NCBI GenBank assembly: GCA_025937075.1
Contig: JAICSD010000112.1
Coordinates: 1-10,879, forward strand
Direction: 5' to 3'
DNA length: 10,879 nucleotides
DNA from: Vicinamibacteria bacterium
GTDB taxonomy: Bacteria > Acidobacteriota > Vicinamibacteria > Vicinamibacterales > 2-12-FULL-66-21
Shown piece by piece: positions 1,228 to 10,879 of the stretch; position 1 is the first letter of the stretch; each line of letters opens with the position of its first letter. The translations under genes were made by a program, and so were the position numbers. Below the pieces are notes generated by a model. That model made no database searches. It worked only from the letters and a program-made list of their open reading frames with translations, and was not told the DNA's origin.

Positions 1228-2724
1228 ATGAGCACTGCCGTAAAAGAACTGCACGCGTTCGATGCAGCCGTGAAGGCCGGACGCGTTCCCTACAAGGTGA
1301 AGGACCTCGGGCTCGCAGAGCTCGGTCGCAAGGAGATTCGGCTCGCCGAGCACGAGATGCCCGGCCTCATGACGCTGCGGACCCGATACAAGGACAAGAA
1401 GCCGCTGGCTGGCGCGCGCGTCATGGGCAGCCTGCACATGACGGTGCAGACGGCCGTCCTCATCGAGACGCTGACGGATCTGGGCGCGGACGTCCGCTGG
1501 GTATCGTGCAACATCTTTTCAACCCAGGATCACGCCGCCGCTGCCGTCGTCGTCGGCAGGCCCGAGACAGGCGGCACGCCGGAAAACCCGAAAGGGACCC
1601 CCGTGTTCGCGTGGAAAGGGGAGACGCTCGAAGAGTACTGGTGGTGCACGAGCGAAGCGCTCATGTGGCCGGACGAGGGCGGACCGAGCCAGATCGTGGA
1701 CGACGGTGGCGATGCGACGCTGCTGGTGCACAAGGGAGCCGAGTTCGAGAAGGCGGGGCGCGTGCCCGACTTCGATCCGGACAAGGAGCCCGAGGAGTGG
1801 GGCGTGATCCTCGATCTGCTCCGCCGCGAGCTGAAGTCCAACAATGGGCGGTGGACGAAGGTGGCAGCCGATATCCGCGGCGTCAGCGAGGAGACGACGA
1901 CCGGCGTGCACCGGCTGTATCAGATGATGGAAGCCGGCACGCTGCTGTTCCCGGCGATCAACGTCAACGACTCCGTCACCAAGAGCAAGTTCGACAACAT
2001 TTACGGCTGCCGGCATTCACTCATCGATGGCCTGAATCGCGCGACCGACGTCATGCTCGGCGGCAAGGTGGCGGTCGTGGCTGGCTACGGCGAGGTCGGC
2101 AAGGGATGCGCGCAGGCGCTCCGCGGACAGGGCTGCCGCGTCATCATCGCGGAGATCGATCCGATCTGTGCGCTGCAGGCGGCGATGGAGGGCTACGAGG
2201 TCAAGCGGGTGCAGGACGTCGTTGAAACGGCCGACATCTTCGTCACGGCGACGGGCAACCTCAACATCATCAGCGTCGACGACATGGCGCGCATGAAGCA
2301 CAACGCGATCGTCGGCAACATCGGGCACTTCGACAACGAGATCGACATGGCCGGCCTGAAGAAGCGCGGGATCGAGCGGATCAACATCAAGCCGCAGTAC
2401 GACGAGTTCCGCTTCCCCGACGGCCACAGCGTCCTGATCCTCGCCGAGGGACGGCTCCTGAACCTCGGGTGTGCCACAGGGCATCCGAGCTTCGTGATGT
2501 CCGCGTCGTTCACCAACCAGGTGATCGCGCAGCTCGAGCTGCACCAGTACAGCGGGAAGTACGAGAAGAAGGTGTACATCCTGCCGAAGCATCTCGATGA
2601 AGAAGTGGCGCGGCTGCACCTGGATCATCTCGGCGTGAAGCTCACGAAGCTGACGCCCGAGCAGGCGCAGTACATCGGCGTGCCGGCCGAAGGGCCGTAC
2701 AAGCCCGAGCATTACCGGTATTGA
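1228..2724 (+). CDS. ahcY: S-adenosylhomocysteinase (adenosylhomocysteinase)
   Basis: A 498-aa cytoplasmic, NAD-dependent enzyme that reversibly splits S-adenosylhomocysteine into adenosine and homocysteine, relieving product inhibition of methyltransferases and feeding methionine resynthesis. Visible family signatures are [16 protein letters not shown] (67-82), CNIFSTQD (94-101), [10 protein letters not shown] (221-230), [11 protein letters not shown] (248-257), the Rossmann NAD loop GYGEVGKG (286-293), [15 protein letters not shown] (about 359-373) and the hallmark C-terminus KPEHYRY (492-498). Residues about 171-212 form the extra acidic segment of the long bacterial form (as in mycobacteria), which explains a length above the roughly 430 aa of the short form. 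The protein looks complete. It follows the ArsR-methyltransferase gene on the same strand with only the hairpin repeat between, so co-transcription is likely. Confidence 0.98.
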
Positions 2725-2727
2725 TGC

Positions 2728-2746
2728 GAGCTTCCGCTTGAAGCTC
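2728..2746. repeat. Hairpin after ahcY, possibly a decayed repeat copy
   Basis: GAGCTTC (2728-2734) and GAAGCTC (2740-2746) form a 7-bp stem with a CGCTT loop, starting 3 nt after the ahcY stop. There is no T-run, so it is at best a weak terminator. It shares GCTTCCGC with the first hairpin at 1157-1178, so it could be a degenerate copy of the same repeat, leaving ahcY flanked on both sides. Confidence 0.5.
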
Positions 2747-2751
2747 TGATG

Positions 2752-3663
2752 CTATCGATGCGGGACTTGGGAGTTGGGCGATTGGGAGTTGGGCGTTAGC
2801 TTCAGCTCCCGCGTCAACCACTCGACGCGATCGCGGGCGGCCTCTGCGCTCAGCTCGTGCTCGGCGTTGTAGTACTTCACCGTCTTCGCATTCCCGGCGG
2901 CCTTCGCGAGCGCGGCGGCCGCTTCCTTCGAGACGAACTTGTCGTTGTTCGCGAACTGCAGCAGGATCGGCCGGGGAGCGATGTGCGGCAGGTACTTCAC
3001 CGGATCGAGCGGCGCGAGCTTCGCGATGAAGCGCTCGCGCGCGGGCCCCTCGCGCTTCGGCGTATAGAGGAACCAGTCGCTGAACGACTGCGTGCCGGCC
3101 ATGAACACGAAGCGCGACACGCGGCGGTCCGCCGCCACCGCCAGCGCGCCGTACATCGCCCCGAAATCATGCCCCACATACGCCATCCGCGCGGCGTCGA
3201 GGCTGGGCTGCTGCAGCAGGACGTCCAGGGCGCGCCTCAGGTTCTTCACTTCCTGCACCGACATGTCGTAGTCGCGCTCGCTGTTGCGATTGGGAAACCA
3301 CGCCGGCTCGGACCAGGGCGTATCGATCAGCAGCGACACGGCGCCGGCCCGCGCGAGCGCGATGGCGTCAGCGAGGAACTGCGTCCGGTTCGACGTCGCG
3401 TTGGGCGGCCCGTACCAGTGGACGAACAAGATGCCGGGGCGCCTGCCGGCCGTCGGCTGCGCGGGGGCCACGATCGTCGCGCCGTTGCGGGTGCCGTCCG
3501 CCTGCGCGTATGTGATCTCCCGGACGGCCACGCCCGTGCGGTCCGCCGACGCGGCGGGCCGCACGTTGATCGGCCGCGACGCGTCGTATTCGAACGACGG
3601 AGCCGGAGCCGGCATTTGTGCCGCCCCCAGCGCCGCAATCGCGACCGTCAGGATTCTGAGCAT
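2752..3663 (-). CDS. Secreted alpha/beta hydrolase, dienelactone-hydrolase-like, with Asp in the nucleophile elbow
   Basis: A 303-aa protein with a hydrophobic N-terminal export signal (residues 1-16, then an Ala/Pro-rich segment), so it is probably periplasmic. The fold is alpha/beta hydrolase: LFVHWYG (79-85) for the oxyanion region, then YVGHDFGAMYG (162-172) at the nucleophile elbow, NND (239-241, likely acid Asp241) and AEHEL (267-271, likely catalytic His269). The elbow residue is Asp166, where dienelactone hydrolases have Cys and esterases have Ser. Haloalkane dehalogenases and epoxide hydrolases use Asp in a similar GHDxG context. The substrate is unknown. The recognisable domain ends near residue 288; the tail with PNSQSPNSQ is encoded by the tandem repeat at 2762-2796. 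The gene converges on ahcY (27-bp gap) and diverges from the sulfatase-like gene at 3784. No strong ribosome-binding site is visible. Confidence 0.85.
   Translation of the reverse strand: MLRILTVAIAALGAAQMPAPAPSFEYDASRPINVRPAASADRTGVAVREITYAQADGTRNGATIVAPAQPTAGRRPGILFVHWYGPPNATSNRTQFLADAIALARAGAVSLLIDTPWSEPAWFPNRNSERDYDMSVQEVKNLRRALDVLLQQPSLDAARMAYVGHDFGAMYGALAVAADRRVSRFVFMAGTQSFSDWFLYTPKREGPARERFIAKLAPLDPVKYLPHIAPRPILLQFANNDKFVSKEAAAALAKAAGNAKTVKYYNAEHELSAEAARDRVEWLTRELKLTPNSQSPNSQVPHR
2762..2796 (+). repeat. G-run tandem repeat at the convergent gene ends
   Basis: Two 15-bp copies (2767-2781 and 2782-2796) differ at one base, and each is built from TTGGGAG and TTGGGCG. Five GGG runs start at 2762, 2769, 2776, 2784 and 2791 with 4- to 5-nt loops, which satisfies the usual G-quadruplex pattern on the plus strand. 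On the minus strand the repeat codes for the Pro-Asn-Ser-Gln tail of the hydrolase. Confidence 0.8.
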
Positions 3664-3727
3664 TCTGGCGCAACGATATCAGCATCAGGGGAGCAGCGTC
3701 CGCTGGCCGCCAGCCGCAAAGGGACCA

Positions 3728-3817
3728 CAGGAGACCAGGAGATCAGGAGAGAATACGTTGAGCTCCTGATCTCCTGAACTCCTGTGATCCGTTCTGCTGG
3801 TCTCCTGATCTCCTGTG
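3728..3817. repeat. Inverted array of an 8-bp repeat overlapping the start of the sulfatase-like gene
   Basis: Three head-to-tail units CAGGAGAC, CAGGAGAT and CAGGAGAG occupy 3728-3751. After an 11-nt gap the inverse units CTCCTGAT, CTCCTGAA and CTCCTGTG occupy 3763-3786. A second group, CTCCTGAT and CTCCTGTG, lies at 3802-3817. The inner arms 3736-3749 and 3763-3776 are a perfect 14-bp inverted repeat with a 13-nt loop. The array fills most of the spacer between two divergent genes and continues into coding sequence; the GTG start (3784-3786) is part of a unit. A short separate dyad, GCTGGC (3702-3707) with GCCAGC (3709-3714), lies nearby. Confidence 0.85.
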
Positions 3818-5826
3818 CAGCGATCGTGCTGCTGGCAGGCTGCACGCGTGCGTATGCGCCGACGCACGACATCAAGCCACGCAACGTCATCCTGATCACG
3901 ATCGACACGCTCCGCGTCGATCGTGTGGGCCACGGGCTCACGCCGTCGATAGACGCGCTCGCGGCGCGGGGCGTCCGCTTCACCCATGCCCGGGCGGTCG
4001 TCCCGCTCACGCTGCCGTCGCACACGGTGATCATGACGGGCGCGCTGCCGTCGAAGACCGGCGTGCGCATCAATGGCACAAGCGGCCTGACGCCGGGGCA
4101 CCCGACGATAGCGCGCGTCCTGAAGGACGCCGGGTATCGCACCGGCGCGTTCGTCGGCGCCTACGTGCTGGACCGGCGGTTCGGCCTCGCGGACGGCTTC
4201 GACGTGTACGACGATCGCGTCCAGCGGGATCCGAGCGGCGCGATCGCGCTCGAGGCGCAGCGCCGCGGCGACGCCGTGGTCGACGCCTCGCTCCAGTGGC
4301 TGACCGCTTCGAATCAGACGCCCTTCTTCATCTGGATCCACCTGTACGATCCGCACGCGCCGTACGAGCCGCCGCCCGACTACCTGGCGCGCGCGAAGAA
4401 TGTCCCATACGACGGCGAGGTCGCGTTCGCGGACGCGCAGGTCGGCCGCGTGCTCGACTGGCTGAAATCGTCCGGGCAGGAGAACCAGACGGCCGTCGTC
4501 GTCGCGGGCGATCACGGCGAAGGGCTCGGCGATCACGGTGAAGCAACGCACGGGATGCTGCTCTACGACTCTACGCTGCGCGTCCCGCTCGTCATGGCGG
4601 GACCGAGTCTCGCGGCTGGCACGCGCGATGAGCCTGTGTCGCTCGCGAACCTGGCCGCGACGCTGATTGGCTGGGCCGGCGTTCCCGTGGCGCGCGGGAT
4701 GCAGCCGCCGTCGCTGCTCTCGGCGGACAAGGCCGGCGAAGTGGTCGCGGAAACCGAGTATCCCCGCAGCGCCGGTTGGCACGCGCTGACGGCGCTGGCG
4801 GACGATCGATGGAAGCTGATCGTCTCGTCCGAACGCGAGCTCTACGACCTCGCCTCGGATCCAGGCGAGACGCGCAACGTCGCGGCGTGGAAGACGTCCG
4901 TGGCCGACGCCATGTCGAACGCGCTCGGTGCCGTAGCCCAGCCAGGCCCTTCTTCGACGTCAGTGCCGCCCGACGCCGCCGAGCGCCTGCGCGCGCTCGG
5001 CTACGTGTCTGGCGGGCCGCAGACGCCCGTGTCGGAGAAGGCACCGAATCCCGCGAAGCACATCGCGGCGTGGAACACGTTCGAGAAGGAGCTTGGCCGA
5101 TTGACCGCGGGTGACGCCAGACGCGCGCTTCCAGGACTCGCGGCGCTGGCGCGATCGTCGCCAGACTCGCCGCTCTTTCAATCCACCTATGCCCGCGCGC
5201 TGAAGGGGACAGGGCGTGTGCAGGACGCGCTGGTCATCTATCGCAAGCTGGTCGCGCGCTGGCCGGGCGACGCGTCGCTCTATCATGACCTCGCCGTCGC
5301 AGCGGAGGCAGCCGGTCAGCCGAAGGAAGCCGCGCGCGCGGAGCAGGCGGCGCTCGCGCTCGAGCCGTCCAATCCCGCGGCAGCGAACGGTCTCGGATTG
5401 ATCCACGTCGAAGCCGGCCGAACGGCCGACGCGATCAAGGCCTTCGAGCAGGCGGTCACAGGCGATCCCTCGAACGCGGTCTTCTGGACCAATCTCGGGA
5501 ACGCTCGCCGCGATGCGGGAGATACGGCCGGCGCGGAGCAGGCCTACCGCACGGCGCTCGACCGCGATCCTCGATCCGCCGACGCCGCAAACGGGATGGG
5601 CGTGCTGCTCGTGCAGGCCCATCGCGCGCAGGAGGCGATCGGCTGGTTCCGGCGTGCGCTGGCCTCATCGCCGCAGTTTCTCGAAGCGCGGCTGAATCTC
5701 GGGATCGCGTACCAGGAGAGCGGCGCGAGGGATCGCGCGGCGGAAGAGTATCGCCGCGTGCTGAGGGATGCGGCGCCGACGTCCCGGGAACATTACGCGG
5801 CCAGCTCGCTGCTGCAGCAGAAATAA
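3784..5826 (+). CDS. Sulfatase-like (alkaline-phosphatase superfamily) lipoprotein with C-terminal TPRs
   Basis: A 680-aa protein starting at GTG 3784; an in-frame stop at 3775-3777 rules out anything earlier. A lipoprotein signal is visible: h-region AGLLISCAAIVLLA, then lipobox LAGC with Cys20, so it is membrane-anchored and faces the periplasm or surface. The catalytic domain is about 33-340, with likely metal ligands Asp41 (ITIDTLR), Asp189/His191 (YDPHAPY), Asp243/His244 (GDHGE) and His256. The nucleophile position is Thr76 in PLTLPSH, not the Cys/Ser of formylglycine sulfatases, so a phosphodiesterase or transferase role is as likely as sulfate ester hydrolysis. RLRALGYVSGG (401-411) precedes at least five TPR-like repeats (about 465-665), probably for protein contacts. 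No Shine-Dalgarno is visible; the upstream region is the 8-bp repeat array. A paralogue lies at 9065-10879 on the other strand. Confidence 0.88.
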   Translation: MIRSAGLLISCAAIVLLAGCTRAYAPTHDIKPRNVILITIDTLRVDRVGHGLTPSIDALAARGVRFTHARAVVPLTLPSHTVIMTGALPSKTGVRINGTSGLTPGHPTIARVLKDAGYRTGAFVGAYVLDRRFGLADGFDVYDDRVQRDPSGAIALEAQRRGDAVVDASLQWLTASNQTPFFIWIHLYDPHAPYEPPPDYLARAKNVPYDGEVAFADAQVGRVLDWLKSSGQENQTAVVVAGDHGEGLGDHGEATHGMLLYDSTLRVPLVMAGPSLAAGTRDEPVSLANLAATLIGWAGVPVARGMQPPSLLSADKAGEVVAETEYPRSAGWHALTALADDRWKLIVSSERELYDLASDPGETRNVAAWKTSVADAMSNALGAVAQPGPSSTSVPPDAAERLRALGYVSGGPQTPVSEKAPNPAKHIAAWNTFEKELGRLTAGDARRALPGLAALARSSPDSPLFQSTYARALKGTGRVQDALVIYRKLVARWPGDASLYHDLAVAAEAAGQPKEAARAEQAALALEPSNPAAANGLGLIHVEAGRTADAIKAFEQAVTGDPSNAVFWTNLGNARRDAGDTAGAEQAYRTALDRDPRSADAANGMGVLLVQAHRAQEAIGWFRRALASSPQFLEARLNLGIAYQESGARDRAAEEYRRVLRDAAPTSREHYAASSLLQQK

Positions 5827-5884: not shown

Positions 5885-8845
5885 CTAGAACGTGAAGCGG
5901 AACCCGATCTGACCCACGCGCTGCTCCGGCTGTCCCGCGTCACCGGCGAATGCGTTCGGCGTCAGGAACACCGGATTCGCCGAGTGGTTCGCCAGCGTTC
6001 CCGTGAAGAACCGCGTGGACGAAGCCGAGCCCGTATTGAACGCCGGGTTGATCGAGTTGAACATGTTGAACACCTCCCCGAACACCTCGATGTTCATGTT
6101 GCTGGGCAGATGCAGCGACTTGGAGACGCGCAGGTTGAACTGCGAGAGGGCCGCGCCACGGCCGCAGTTGACCGTTTCGCATGCACCCATCTCCTTGAAC
6201 GACGCGTGCCCCGCCGAATCGATCCCGGTGTAGCGATACGCTGTGGAGAAGATGTCGTTGCTCACGCCGTCGAGGTTGTTGTCGTACCCGTACCAGATGT
6301 GCGCCGGCAGCGCCGACCGGAAGCGATAGATCGGCGACACCGTTACTCCACCTGGCGCCTGCCAGATCGCGCTGACCGTCACCTTGTGACGCGCGTCCGT
6401 GCGCGCCGCCGGACCGAAGTCGATGGGCGTGAGCGGATCGAAGGCGTTCTGCACGAGGTTCGTCGTCAACTCGTCGACGCCGAGACCGCCGTAGCCCTCT
6501 GCCTTCGACAGCGAGTACCACGCATTGAGCTGAAGGCCGTGCTGCATGCGCCGGCGGACGCCGAAGTTGATCCCGTTGTACGTGCTCGCCCCGATGCTCA
6601 TGTTCATCGTCGGGTTTGCCGGGTTCAGCGGCAGATCCGCGTACCGCCGGGCGCCGTTGTTGATGCGCACGTTCAGCGGCCAGCGAACGCCAAGATCGTG
6701 TCCCTTGACGTTCACGTAATCGATATCCACGACCGTCGCAGGATCGAGCTCGTGCGACCAGCCCACTGACGTCTGCGCCGTCCACGGTTGCCGCACTTCC
6801 GGCGCCATCACGTTCGAGCTGAAGAACGGGCCGTTCGGGTTGACCTCGTTCTGGCTCGCAATATTGGAGATCGGCTGGCCAACCGTGAAGAAGCTCCCGT
6901 CGGGGTTCTTGATCCCCGCGGTGTTGCTGACGCTGAAGATGATGCCCGATCCGCCCTGGGCGCTCAGGCCCGGGAAGAGGATGTTTGCGTTCGTGTAGCC
7001 GAAGTCGTAGTACACGCCCCAGCCGGCCCGGATCACGTCCTTGCCGTTACCGTGCAGGTCGTACACCGCTCCGATTCGCGGCTGCACGTTGTTGTAGTCC
7101 TCCGTCGCCTTCTTGCCGAACTCCTCGAACCCGGGAACGCCGTTGAAGCGGCCTGCCGCGGCTGCCTGTGTCAGGACCTGAAAGTTGTTGACGCCGGACT
7201 GATCGATGTTGAAGCCAGTAATGAGGTCGTAGCGCACGCCGGCGTTGACCGTCAGCCTGTCGCTCAGGCGCCAGTCGTCCTGGACGTACGTCGCGAACTG
7301 CTTCATGGGCAGGTTCGCAGAGGCGCCGGGCTTGTTGCGCGACACCGCGCTGATCGGGCCGTTCAGGTCGTTGGTCAGATGCGTGTACGCGTAGTCGGAG
7401 CTGCCCGAGGCGAACGTCACGTACAGGTGCGGCTCGTTGATGAAGTTGACGCCCGCCTTGAAATCGTGGCCCAGACCGCCCGCGCCGGTGAGATGCCACG
7501 AGAAATCGTCCCGGAACTGCCACTTCTTCTGCTCGGTGGTCTGCGGCGTGTTCGTGTTGTACCCAATCGCGACGGCGTTCGGGAACGTCTCCTGCGGCTT
7601 CTCGGTGCGGGCCAGGATTTGGTTGCCGAAATCCGCGTACTGAAAGATGAACTCGTTCAGCTTGGCTCCGCCCAGCACCCAGTTGTGATTCAGATTGACC
7701 GAATTGAACTTGTTGGTGCTGTCGCCCCAGTTCTCGGGGAGCGAGCGGGTCGTCGCTCCATAGACCTGCGAGTTCTCGTTGCGGCCGTAGCGCACGGAGA
7801 GGTAGTGCGAGGCGTTCAGGTTCGCCGACACCTTCCCGGTGAGGAGCGTTTCGCGATACGGCGTGGTGTAAACCTTGCCGTCCTCAGACGGGAAGAGACC
7901 GAGCGTCGTGACCGACTGCGTCGTGTCCTGCTGCGTGCGCTCGAACGCACCAAAGTAGTGCGCCTTGTTCTGCACGATCGGACCGCCGAACGAGCCCCCG
8001 TACTGATAACGACGATAGTCCTGCTTGTCGACGTCGTTCAGCTTTTCGGTCTCCGTCCGCGCGTTCATCGACTTGTCGCGGAACGCCGTGAACCAGCTGC
8101 CGTGTGGATCGTTGGTGCCGCTCTTCGTGACGATGCTCATCACGCCGCCGTTGCTGCGGCCGTACTCGGCCTTGTAGCGCTGCGTGACGAAGTTGAACTC
8201 CTGAATCGCCTCGAGCGGGAACAGCTGCAGCAGACCTCCGACGGTGTCGTCGTTGTTGTCCCCGCCGTCGATCTGATAGTTCACGTTGCGGCCGTTGCCG
8301 CCGGCGATCTGGGGCGAGAACTGCGTGCTCTTCGTCGGGTCGCTGTGGAAGCCGAGGCCGACGCCGGGAATCGTCATCGCCAGGTTCGCGAACTGCCGTC
8401 CGTTGAGGGGCAGATTCTCAATCCGCTGCACGTCGACGACGCCGCCGACGGACGAGTTGCTCGTCTGAATCAGCGGCGATTCGGCCGTGACACTGACGCT
8501 TTCCGACACGCCGGCCACGGTCATGTCGACGTTCGCGTCGACAGTTTGGCCGACGTTCACAACCAGCCCCTTCCGCTCATAGGGGGTGAAGCCAGAAAGT
8601 TCCGCGCGCAGGTCGTACGTGCCCACCGGCAGCGCGTTGAGGCGGTACACGCCTTCCGCGTCGGTGACCTCGGACCGTGTGAACCCCGTCTCGGTGTTCT
8701 TCGCGGTCACCGTCACCCCGGGCACCGCCGCTTTCTGCGCGTCGACGATGCGCCCCTGAATGTTGCCGGTCGTCTGCTGCGCGAATGCGGGGGTCCCCAC
8801 CGCACACGCGCACAGCACGATCATCGCAACGATGATCTTCTTCAT
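5885..8845 (-). CDS. TonB-dependent receptor, Oar-like, with N-terminal carboxypeptidase-regulatory domain
   Basis: A 986-aa outer-membrane protein. ATG at 8845 is preceded by GGAGG (8860-8856, 10-nt spacing). A signal peptide is clear: MKKI, a hydrophobic core, then AFA before QQ (cleavage near residue 22). Residues about 25-110 are a carboxypeptidase-regulatory/beta-sandwich domain (GRIVDAQKAAVPGVTVT; EGVYRLNALPVGTYDLR). About 115-245 is the plug (LPLNGRQFANLAMTIPG; QIDGGDNND; AEYGRSNGGVMSIVTKSGTN), followed by the beta-barrel, ending in GQIGFRFTF with the terminal Phe of outer-membrane barrels. Oar-like receptors are expanded in Acidobacteriota and are usually assigned to uptake of peptides or glycans; the substrate here is unknown. 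It lies 219 nt downstream of a sulfatase-like gene on the same strand and ends in an intrinsic terminator. It is intact, with no frameshift seen. Confidence 0.95.
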   Translation of the reverse strand: MKKIIVAMIVLCACAVGTPAFAQQTTGNIQGRIVDAQKAAVPGVTVTAKNTETGFTRSEVTDAEGVYRLNALPVGTYDLRAELSGFTPYERKGLVVNVGQTVDANVDMTVAGVSESVSVTAESPLIQTSNSSVGGVVDVQRIENLPLNGRQFANLAMTIPGVGLGFHSDPTKSTQFSPQIAGGNGRNVNYQIDGGDNNDDTVGGLLQLFPLEAIQEFNFVTQRYKAEYGRSNGGVMSIVTKSGTNDPHGSWFTAFRDKSMNARTETEKLNDVDKQDYRRYQYGGSFGGPIVQNKAHYFGAFERTQQDTTQSVTTLGLFPSEDGKVYTTPYRETLLTGKVSANLNASHYLSVRYGRNENSQVYGATTRSLPENWGDSTNKFNSVNLNHNWVLGGAKLNEFIFQYADFGNQILARTEKPQETFPNAVAIGYNTNTPQTTEQKKWQFRDDFSWHLTGAGGLGHDFKAGVNFINEPHLYVTFASGSSDYAYTHLTNDLNGPISAVSRNKPGASANLPMKQFATYVQDDWRLSDRLTVNAGVRYDLITGFNIDQSGVNNFQVLTQAAAAGRFNGVPGFEEFGKKATEDYNNVQPRIGAVYDLHGNGKDVIRAGWGVYYDFGYTNANILFPGLSAQGGSGIIFSVSNTAGIKNPDGSFFTVGQPISNIASQNEVNPNGPFFSSNVMAPEVRQPWTAQTSVGWSHELDPATVVDIDYVNVKGHDLGVRWPLNVRINNGARRYADLPLNPANPTMNMSIGASTYNGINFGVRRRMQHGLQLNAWYSLSKAEGYGGLGVDELTTNLVQNAFDPLTPIDFGPAARTDARHKVTVSAIWQAPGGVTVSPIYRFRSALPAHIWYGYDNNLDGVSNDIFSTAYRYTGIDSAGHASFKEMGACETVNCGRGAALSQFNLRVSKSLHLPSNMNIEVFGEVFNMFNSINPAFNTGSASSTRFFTGTLANHSANPVFLTPNAFAGDAGQPEQRVGQIGFRFTF

Positions 8846-9064: not shown

Positions 9065-10879
9065 TTAGCGGACCGCCGCCAGCAGCCGCTCGACTTCCGG
9101 CCGCTGCGGCGCGTCTTCCGGCAGACGCCGGAGCAGTTCTGCGGCCTCTTTCGCCGCCTCCGCCTGGCGCCCCGATCTCGCGTACGCAATCGCGAGGGAG
9201 AACCGCGCCTGGTGCAGATCCGGATCGAGGGTCAGAGCTAGCTGAAGGTAGGGGAGTCCTTGCGCCGGGCGTCCGTGATCCGACAGCACGATTCCGAGAT
9301 TCGCGAGGACGACGGGGTCATCCGGGTCGGCGGCGTTCGCTTTCCGGAGCGTTGCCTCCGCCGCCAGTGCGTCGCGTGCGTCAACCTGACAACCTGCCAA
9401 ACCAAGATCGGCGTCAGCGCCCGGCAGGCGCGCGGCAATCGCGCGCGTAAAGAAAGGTATGGCGTCGCGGCAGCGGCCGCCGTTCATGAGCACGTAGCCG
9501 AGGCGCACGTTGGCCTGCGGGTTGTCGGGATCCTCGCGCAGGATCGCGCGAAGCGTCTGTTCGAGCGCGTCGCCGTGCAGCTCGCCGGACGTGACTTGCG
9601 CAATGCGTGCGGCTTGCGCGCGGCGGTCCTTGGGATCAGGGCGCGTGCCGATGCGATCACCTCCACCGGAGACATACCCCAGCGCCTGCAGCCGCCGCTG
9701 CGTCTCGGGATCCGCCGCTGATGCAACGGCCGGCAGCGTCGCCGGCGAGATCGCGCCCACGCGCCGCGCCATGTCGGCGGCGCGCTGGGGCTCCTCCTTG
9801 ATCATGTTGCGCGTCTCGCCGGGATCGCTCGTCAGGTTGTAAAGCTCCGGTTCAGGTGCGGCGATATATTTCCAGCCGTCCGCACGAATGGATCGAAGAG
9901 GGCTCCAGCCGAAATCGAGCAGCGGCGCGAACGACTCGGCGTAGATGCGGCGCGGCGCGAGGTGTTCAGCCGACAGCGCCGCATGGAGATCGACGCCGTC
10001 GGCGTCGAACGATCCAAGCTGCGCGAGCCGCGCGAGCGTTGGCGCGACGTCGACGAGCGAGACCTCGTCAGCGACCCGCGTCCCGTGCGGCAGGCCGGGA
10101 CCGGCCATGATCAGCGGAACGCGCAGCGTGGTGTCGTAGACGAACACGCTGTGGCTCACTTCGTCGTGCTCGCCAAAGGCTTCGCCATGATCGGCCGCGA
10201 ACACGATCAGCGTGTTTGCTCGTGCATCGCGCAGGCCCTCGAGCAATCTGGCCGTCTGCCGATCGGCCTCCGCGATGTCCTCGTCGTAGCGCGCCGCCGC
10301 AGGGCGCTGCGCATCTGTCGGATCCGCGGGATTGCCGTACGGCGCGTGCGGCTCGAACAGATGAACCCACAGAAAGAATCGATCGCTCCGATGCTGATCG
10401 AGCCAGCCGAGCGCGTCGTCGACGACCATGCGTCCGGCACGCTCGTTGGCCAGCCGATCGTCGGGTCCACGCGGCATGCGATCGCCGTAGGTTTGAAACC
10501 CTTTGTTCAGGCCGAAGCGGCGATCGAGCGGGAACGCGCCGACGAAGGCGGCGGTCGCATAACCCGCCGCCGCGAACCGTTCGGCGAGAGTCGGTCGTTT
10601 CGGATCGATCCGCATGCCGTTGTCGCGCGCGCCGTGGCCGGGCGGATAGAGCCCGGTCATGAGGCTCGCGTGCGACGTCAGCGTAATCGGCGCGGCGGCA
10701 TACGCGCGCGTGAACAGGACGCCGTCGCGGGCGAGCCCGTCGAGGGCGGCCGTCCGCGCCGCGGCATAGCCATACGCGCCCACACGATCCGCGCGCAGCG
10801 TGTCGATCGTGATCATGACGACGCCGCGGATCGGCGGCGGTGGTTGAGGAGAGGTCCCGCCCCGTCCACAGGCCGTGGA
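9065..10879 (-). CDS. Sulfatase-like (alkaline-phosphatase superfamily) protein with C-terminal TPRs, 5' end outside the window
   Basis: The frame is open to the window edge, giving 604 codons of a longer gene. An ATG at 10816 begins inside the first core strand (ITIDTLRADRVG), too late for a complete protein. The 21 codons upstream read STACGRGG, a Pro-rich linker, then IRGVV. The Cys lies 19 residues before ITIDTLR, close to the 18 between Cys20 and ITIDTLR in the lipoprotein at 3784, so this is probably a lipoprotein too. Counting from that ATG: Thr45 in PITLTSH is at the nucleophile position, with FEPHAPY and AADHGEAFGEHDE as metal-site motifs, RVPLIMAGPG, then RRLQALGYVSGGG and about four TPR-like repeats (about 420-575). 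Thr replaces the sulfatase Cys/Ser, and Thr also replaces the usual Pro two residues later. It is on the same strand as the TonB receptor, which follows by 219 nt. Confidence 0.9.
   Translation of the reverse strand, partial: STACGRGGTSPQPPPPIRGVVMITIDTLRADRVGAYGYAAARTAALDGLARDGVLFTRAYAAAPITLTSHASLMTGLYPPGHGARDNGMRIDPKRPTLAERFAAAGYATAAFVGAFPLDRRFGLNKGFQTYGDRMPRGPDDRLANERAGRMVVDDALGWLDQHRSDRFFLWVHLFEPHAPYGNPADPTDAQRPAAARYDEDIAEADRQTARLLEGLRDARANTLIVFAADHGEAFGEHDEVSHSVFVYDTTLRVPLIMAGPGLPHGTRVADEVSLVDVAPTLARLAQLGSFDADGVDLHAALSAEHLAPRRIYAESFAPLLDFGWSPLRSIRADGWKYIAAPEPELYNLTSDPGETRNMIKEEPQRAADMARRVGAISPATLPAVASAADPETQRRLQALGYVSGGGDRIGTRPDPKDRRAQAARIAQVTSGELHGDALEQTLRAILREDPDNPQANVRLGYVLMNGGRCRDAIPFFTRAIAARLPGADADLGLAGCQVDARDALAAEATLRKANAADPDDPVVLANLGIVLSDHGRPAQGLPYLQLALTLDPDLHQARFSLAIAYARSGRQAEAAKEAAELLRRLPEDAPQRPEVERLLAAVR

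Follow-up and report, generated by a model that had tools for sequence, protein, structure and literature searches.

Introduction

Palindromic repeats can become parts of proteins, as in the case of the Rickettsia palindromic elements, which are inserted inside many proteins; other such repeats, the REP (repetitive extragenic palindromic) elements, are associated with RAYT-type transposases. REP elements are multi-copy extragenic palindromes (PMC12306157, PMC3733652, PMC3116915) that bear a GTAG or CGTC tag on one of their ends (PMC3733652), and some of them lie about 15 nt or less behind stop codons and are reported to affect translation (PMC12306157). The GGGAATC heptamer arrays of Xanthomonas are described as numerous, short, mostly intergenic and situated close to where the preceding gene ends; the same gaps are kept across related species while the length and sequence of the arrays vary, and the arrays have quadruplex potential (PMC4692102). 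The TAACTGA heptamers of Beggiatoaceae are direct repeats found mostly upstream of starts, some of which overlap protein ends (PMC4679880). Here we describe an inverted array of 8-bp units at the start of a sulfatase gene from a Vicinamibacteria bacterium, and compare it with related loci and with these systems.

The array and the sulfatase gene

The window (the whole stretch of DNA analysed, 10,879 nt) carries the array in the divergent gap between the 5' ends of a hydrolase-like gene and the sulfatase gene (Table 1). An earlier sequence-only reading had counted three CAGGAG and five CTCCTG units and a perfect 14-bp inverted repeat; sequence reading and an inverted-repeat search found these counts and their coordinates to be correct. 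The CAGGAG units stand at 3728-3733, 3736-3741, and 3744-3749, and the CTCCTG units at 3763-3768, 3771-3776, 3779-3784, 3802-3807, and 3810-3815; a further unit, CTGCTG (3794-3799), carries one mismatch. The 14-bp inverted repeat joins 3736-3749 and 3763-3776, a second one of 15 bp joins 3736-3750 and 3801-3815, and seven bases separate the first 3' arm from the second 3'-type arm. The same reading had rightly observed that the GTG overlaps a unit end and that GLLISC is read across two CTCCTG units: the G of GTG 3784-3786 is the final base of the unit at 3779-3784, and the hexapeptide is encoded by GGT CTC CTG ATC TCC TGT (3799-3816).

Eight exact CAGGAG/CTCCTG hexamers fall within 88 bp, compared with at most three per ∼90-bp span when the window was dinucleotide-shuffled 500 times, and the octamer CTCCTGRW matches the window 8 times against 0.83 expected, with 5 of the 8 matches inside the array. 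The predicted hairpin at 3724-3790 has an energy of -41.1 kcal/mol (z -8.56), which none of 200 shuffles equalled. A covariance-model search of the window against Rfam 15 gave no match at gathering score, and 3600-3900 contains neither a promoter-like site nor one resembling a Rho-independent terminator (a GC stem followed by a T run).

Table 1. Features of the array and the adjoining genes in the window.
Feature	Position	Strand	Basis
Alpha/beta hydrolase-like gene, divergent to sulfatase	2752..3663	-	Translation, domain match
Inverted array of 8-bp units	3726-3817	+	Sequence reading, inverted-repeat search
5' arm, CACAGGAG ACCAGGAG ATCAGGAG	3726..3749	+	Sequence; inverted-repeat search
13-nt loop separating the arms	3750..3762	+	Inverted-repeat search; fold
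First 3' arm, CTCCTGAT CTCCTGAA CTCCTGTG; GTG start within its end	3763..3786	+	Sequence, inverted-repeat search, fold
Second 3'-type arm, CTGCTGGT CTCCTGAT CTCCTGTG; in coding region, encodes most of GLLISC	3794..3817	+	Sequence, inverted-repeat search, recoding control
680-aa sulfatase (PF00884) carrying TPR repeats at its C terminus	3784..5826	+	Translation, domain match
GTG start codon of sulfatase gene (most likely start)	3784..3786	+	Sole in-frame start upstream of 3826; aligns with orthologue starts
Predicted lipoprotein-type signal, 20 codons, ending at Cys20	3784..3843	+	Translation, orthologue alignment; LLAGC lipobox by eye

In the window's protein database entry, as in the output of a codon-score gene finder, the sulfatase begins at GTG 3826 and not at 3784, which would leave the sulfatase without a signal peptide. 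Upstream of 3826, the frame offers a single start, GTG 3784, and the translation from it (VIRSAGLLISCAAIVLLAGC) aligns with the starts of the orthologues P0002 (MISRGLLISCAALAFIAGC) and P0003 (MICRGLLISCAALALIAGC); P0004 opens with VIFLRGLVIS and P0005 with VDSLRTLLIS, and the call for P0006 begins further downstream. Comparison with these sequences points to 3784 as the most likely start, and the LLAGC lipobox, recognized by eye, predicts a lipoprotein signal over 3784-3843. The frame is intact over 680 codons, with 84-90% identity to five orthologues, and the best homologues among the compared genomes are those of G406 (70% identity) and G349 (65%). A search of viral contigs found no relative of the window, and a general contig search found distant relatives only (at most 43% in the best segment).

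Several other features of the window were recorded. Two sulfatase-TPR genes (3784-5826, plus strand, and 9065-10816, minus strand) flank a large minus-strand gene (5885-8845) with weak TonB-receptor matches. Another tandem array, made of GGGAGTT-type units, occupies 2762-2797 and encodes the last residues of the hydrolase (TPNSQSPNSQVPHR); this tail looks repeat-encoded, as the alignment with the G399 homologue goes no further than residue 289 of 303. At 1157-1178 (GCTTCCGCC...GGCGGAAGC) and 1190-1209 (CGCGGAAC...GTTCCGCG), a pair of perfect or near-perfect palindromes surrounds the end of the ArsR-methyltransferase gene, ahead of SAHH.

A dispersed repeat family in related genomes

The suggestion that the array is one member of a dispersed repeat family was borne out in relatives. 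A search of 162 genomes of the nearest order located 239 exact copies of the 14-mer CTCCTGATCTCCTG, spread over 20 genomes, compared with 3 occurrences of its reversed control. The two-arm hairpin pattern gave 36 forward matches, which fall in 7 of these genomes, and its control gave none. As a point against, each of the closest relatives compared (G406 and G349) contains just two exact 14-mers. Among 396 genomes sampled evenly across the phylum, only 3 match, all of which are within the 162-genome list of the order. We then studied 96 sites in relatives, which are a sample of the places of CTCCTGATCTCCTG rather than every site, using genes called with a simple codon-score script whose start positions are rough. 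Both arms are present at 54 of the 96 sites; 79 sites overlap no called gene, 10 overlap one partially, and 7 lie wholly inside one. A long direct repeat with units of ∼60 bp containing CAGGAGGTCAGGAGGTCAGGAG was also observed wholly inside a called gene (L137, bases 2392-3008, G400:C55).

The median distance of the arrays to facing 3' gene ends is 13 nt, with 66 of 99 within 20 nt, and that to facing 5' ends is 56 nt, with 12 of 56 within 20 nt. Of 48 arrays in tandem gaps, 39 are nearer the stop (p = 1.5e-5). The 76 classified gaps with arrays comprise 24 convergent, 48 tandem, and 4 divergent gaps, compared with 18, 105, and 33, respectively, among 156 background gaps, which stem from a narrower set of 81 sites and include as array-free a few gaps with bare two-unit sites. 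Arrays thus favour convergent gaps (Fisher p = 4e-4) and avoid divergent ones (p = 2e-3). The window copy is therefore atypical, lying in a divergent gap and against a start codon whereas the family mostly lies behind genes. In two species pairs, the same gap keeps an array with changed units: the rplT-pheS gap in G406/G349, and a gap between the same two genes in G287/G455 (pairs from the 81-site set without identical-array duplicates; the names rplT and pheS are a reading of the translations).

The consensus unit, CAGGAGnn, is 8 nt long with G runs of at most two, which sets it apart from quadruplex-type 7-nt G-rich units. The loops are AT-rich (GC 0.37 over 28 sites), the common outer trinucleotides of arrays in relatives are TCA, GAT, AAA, TAA, and GAA, and at least five T in eight bases occur at 14% of 162 array edges versus 2% nearby, so that T-richness is raised and T runs are rare. 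At the 28 sites behind the 36 forward two-arm matches (one per place), the spacers of facing units pair by Watson-Crick rules in 28 of 56 cases, compared with a shuffled mean of 29.8. The facing hexamers alone yield the hairpin and the spacers pair no better than shuffled ones, so selection on exact arm-to-arm pairing finds no support in this test and was rejected.

CAGGAG is one of several unit types in the order. The rplT-pheS gap was readable in 13 of 30 relatives (G406 is among the other 17): G349 holds a CAGGAG array, G399, G403, G433, and G437 (L224, L230, L246, and L248) hold arrays of other units (e.g., GGTTCACG in G399), and no obvious array is seen in G407, G401, G398, G402, or G043. 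These gaps with other units or without an array rule out CAGGAG as a universal unit; in the genomes whose gap is filled with other units, it is as if the architecture had been kept and the unit replaced. In unselected 20-kb regions, local tandem arrays of period 7-9 occupy 8 of 33 gaps in G406, 4 of 35 in G356, 15 of 46 in G127, and 1 of 16 in G433; the corresponding counts for two genomes from outside the order are 2 of 9 and 5 of 14. In G406, G356, G127, and G433, period 7 outnumbers period 8.

Start codon and ribosome binding

The array had also been credited with providing the start codon, which comparison with array-free homologues did not bear out. Among the start contexts of six homologues (out of 20 loci), that of the array-free homologue in G349 (CTCTTGTGACCCGT) is identical to that of the window (CTCCTGTGATCCGT) at 12 of 14 bases, and this match is indicative that the sulfatase GTG is probably older than the array and was not donated by it. 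The start in G349 reads CATAATCTCTT GTG ACC CGT, and that of the G406 homologue, also array-free, reads GATAATCGTGGC GTG AAA CGG; both carry signal sequences other than that of the window (VTRESSLALSAAACLLLTAC and VKRVAVIASLVVIAC). The gene order ArsR-methyltransferase, SAHH, sulfatase, and TonB-like gene is common to the window and G406, and tandem CTCNTG or CANGAG pairs are found neither at the syntenic G406 sulfatase locus nor at the G399 SAHH/hydrolase locus.

A role of CAGGAG as donor or mimic of a Shine-Dalgarno sequence fared no better. The CAGGAG units end 34 nt upstream of GTG 3784 and are buried in the predicted hairpin, which makes them unlikely to serve as its Shine-Dalgarno. The arrays of the family lie mainly behind genes. 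Around those of the 81-site set, CAGGAG is found within 20 nt before none of 20 called starts (the 3826 start of the window included), and Shine-Dalgarno-like 4-mers are not commoner beside arrays (3/24 vs 68/295). The role was rejected on these counts.

Probable origin of the signal codons and the predicted leader hairpin

Taken as a whole, we hold with moderate confidence that the window array is a copy of a REP-like dispersed family lying against an older GTG, half an arm of which became signal codons, and which forms a predicted leader hairpin. The family would consist of dispersed inverted arrays in which a few CAGGAGnn units stand opposite CTCCTGnn units, with a short AT-rich loop between them; some genomes of the window's lineage (Vicinamibacterales-like Acidobacteriota) carry it. 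Judging from position and by analogy with REP elements near stop codons, it may ordinarily work as an mRNA hairpin at the 3' end that affects translation, decay or, to a weak degree, termination; alternatively, it may be tolerated repeat DNA. The window copy would have arrived or grown in the divergent gap, directly against the older GTG of the sulfatase lipoprotein, and its extra half-arm would have turned into signal-peptide codons, presumably tolerated because CTCCTGATCTCC in that frame reads the hydrophobic LLIS. A likely consequence, predicted by folding, is that the 5' leader of upstream-initiated transcripts would form a hairpin in which the start codon is buried, lowering translation. 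That the window copy is not at the 3' end of a gene counts against this account.

The signal segment could instead be ordinary coding sequence that resembles the array by chance, the repeat being confined to the region upstream of the start. Just 53 of 20,000 synonymous recodings, in which the protein and the codon use of the window were kept fixed, contain the observed 15-nt array match, and codons that the window uses little (GGT, TCC, TGT, and GCA) follow one another in the segment, both of which speak against coincidence; in its favour, 510 of the 20,000 recodings give a match of at least 14 nt, LLIS is an ordinary hydrophobic segment of the sort that suits any signal core, and a natural GLLIA start adjoins the array in L131. 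The motif L[LV]IS near the N-terminus is found in 5 of the 120 listed homologues (the window's own entry, with its 3826 start, is among the 120), namely, the four closest orthologues (P0002-P0005) and P0056. We consider chance resemblance unlikely: the rarity of the match among recodings, together with a motif that marks the closest orthologues, indicates that the GLLISC codons are probably derived from the repeat, coincidence being possible. As a conjecture, the LVIS of P0004 could correspond to CTCGTGATCTCC, a variant of the array that occurs in relatives. To this extent, the earlier proposal that a dispersed repeat was recruited as an export signal probably holds for the window copy; as a general rule it looks unlikely, and we rejected it after surveying 45 gene starts that face or overlap arrays (the window included). 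Seven other frames start in or extend into an array, and only two called gene starts lie inside arrays in relatives (L131 and the minus strand of L142); inspection by eye revealed no evident secretion signal in either. Also by eye, the L131 start looks like a natural thymidylate-kinase one, that of L142 minus looks like a rough call, and the remaining array-entering frames look like unused upstream frames, of which L142 plus reads SLLISC. Phase variation finds no support here either: the coding arm has only two perfect units, and orthologue signals differ by 1-2 residues and not by 8-nt steps.

The hairpin invites two further readings. For transcripts starting at 3668-3720, the predicted fold gives the GTG an unpaired probability of 0.00-0.01, and for those starting at or after 3728, the first base of the GTG is unpaired with a probability of 0.49-0.68; that is, the hairpin is predicted to bury the GTG if transcription begins upstream. 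Conceivably, it functions as a switch in the leader of the sulfatase gene, which hides the GTG and in which competition between arms or a transcription start within the array tunes translation. The change from a wholly paired to a partly open GTG would fit such a switch, as would the constrained folds of the 5' arm with arm 1 (-71.4) and arm 2 (-68.4), which are only 3 kcal/mol apart. This is quite unlikely in our estimate, as 3600-3900 holds no promoter-like site, the window has no Rfam match, the homologues read at the G349, G406, and G399 loci are without the array, and the family overall is located at 3' ends. The array might, on the other hand, have displaced an ancestral promoter and leader, so that the gene is weakly expressed or silent and the hairpin by itself is without function. 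A -10-like hexamer, CATAAT or GATAAT, ends 5-6 nt ahead of the GTG in three of the six homologues (L081, L095, and L097), which suggests leaderless transcription of those sulfatase genes; no hexamer of this type stands 5-6 nt ahead of GTG 3784 in the window, which has no promoter-like site nearby either, and the array may thus have displaced a promoter. A weakly expressed or silent gene is nevertheless at odds with the intact frame and its high identity to the five orthologues, and the promoter search used rules that may not be those of this lineage; we rank this reading below the leader switch, as very doubtful. More speculative again, and lowest in our estimate, is an extension of our preferred reading in which one arm codes for the hydrophobic core of the export signal and the start is hidden by this very repeat at the RNA level, so that expression and secretion of the enzyme would be tied to a repeat whose number of units varies among relatives.

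Discussion

Repeat arrays with units of 7-9 nt in the intergenic DNA of bacteria have been little studied. The family described here is an inverted version of them built from octamers, and the window copy offers one concrete case in which such repeat DNA probably supplies codons of a secretion signal. It also emphasizes that a start inside an array can be passed over by a gene caller (3784 vs 3826). Our search of openly licensed papers found no description of the octamer family. Short-unit intergenic arrays are a known kind of element, to which the inverted octamer family of this lineage is an addition with an unusually placed copy in the window.

In relatives, the family resembles the GGGAATC arrays of Xanthomonas in its dispersed and intergenic copies, its position nearer the preceding stop, and its shared gaps with variable arrays. 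It differs in that those units are 7-bp, G-rich, and directly repeated, whereas here 8-bp units form two facing arms able to fold into a hairpin, and the window copy, in its divergent gap, departs from the placement described for the Xanthomonas arrays, close behind the preceding gene. Like REP elements, the family is an extragenic palindrome of many copies; unlike them, the window copy ends without a GTAG or CGTC tag, and its arms are tandem octamers of variable number. The short units, and the position of the window copy directly before a start codon without a Shine-Dalgarno sequence, recall the TAACTGA repeats, although the octamer family is inverted and found mostly behind genes. With the Rickettsia palindromic elements, the window copy shares the presence of a repeat in a protein, which is here, unlike in those elements, a single N-terminal overlap.
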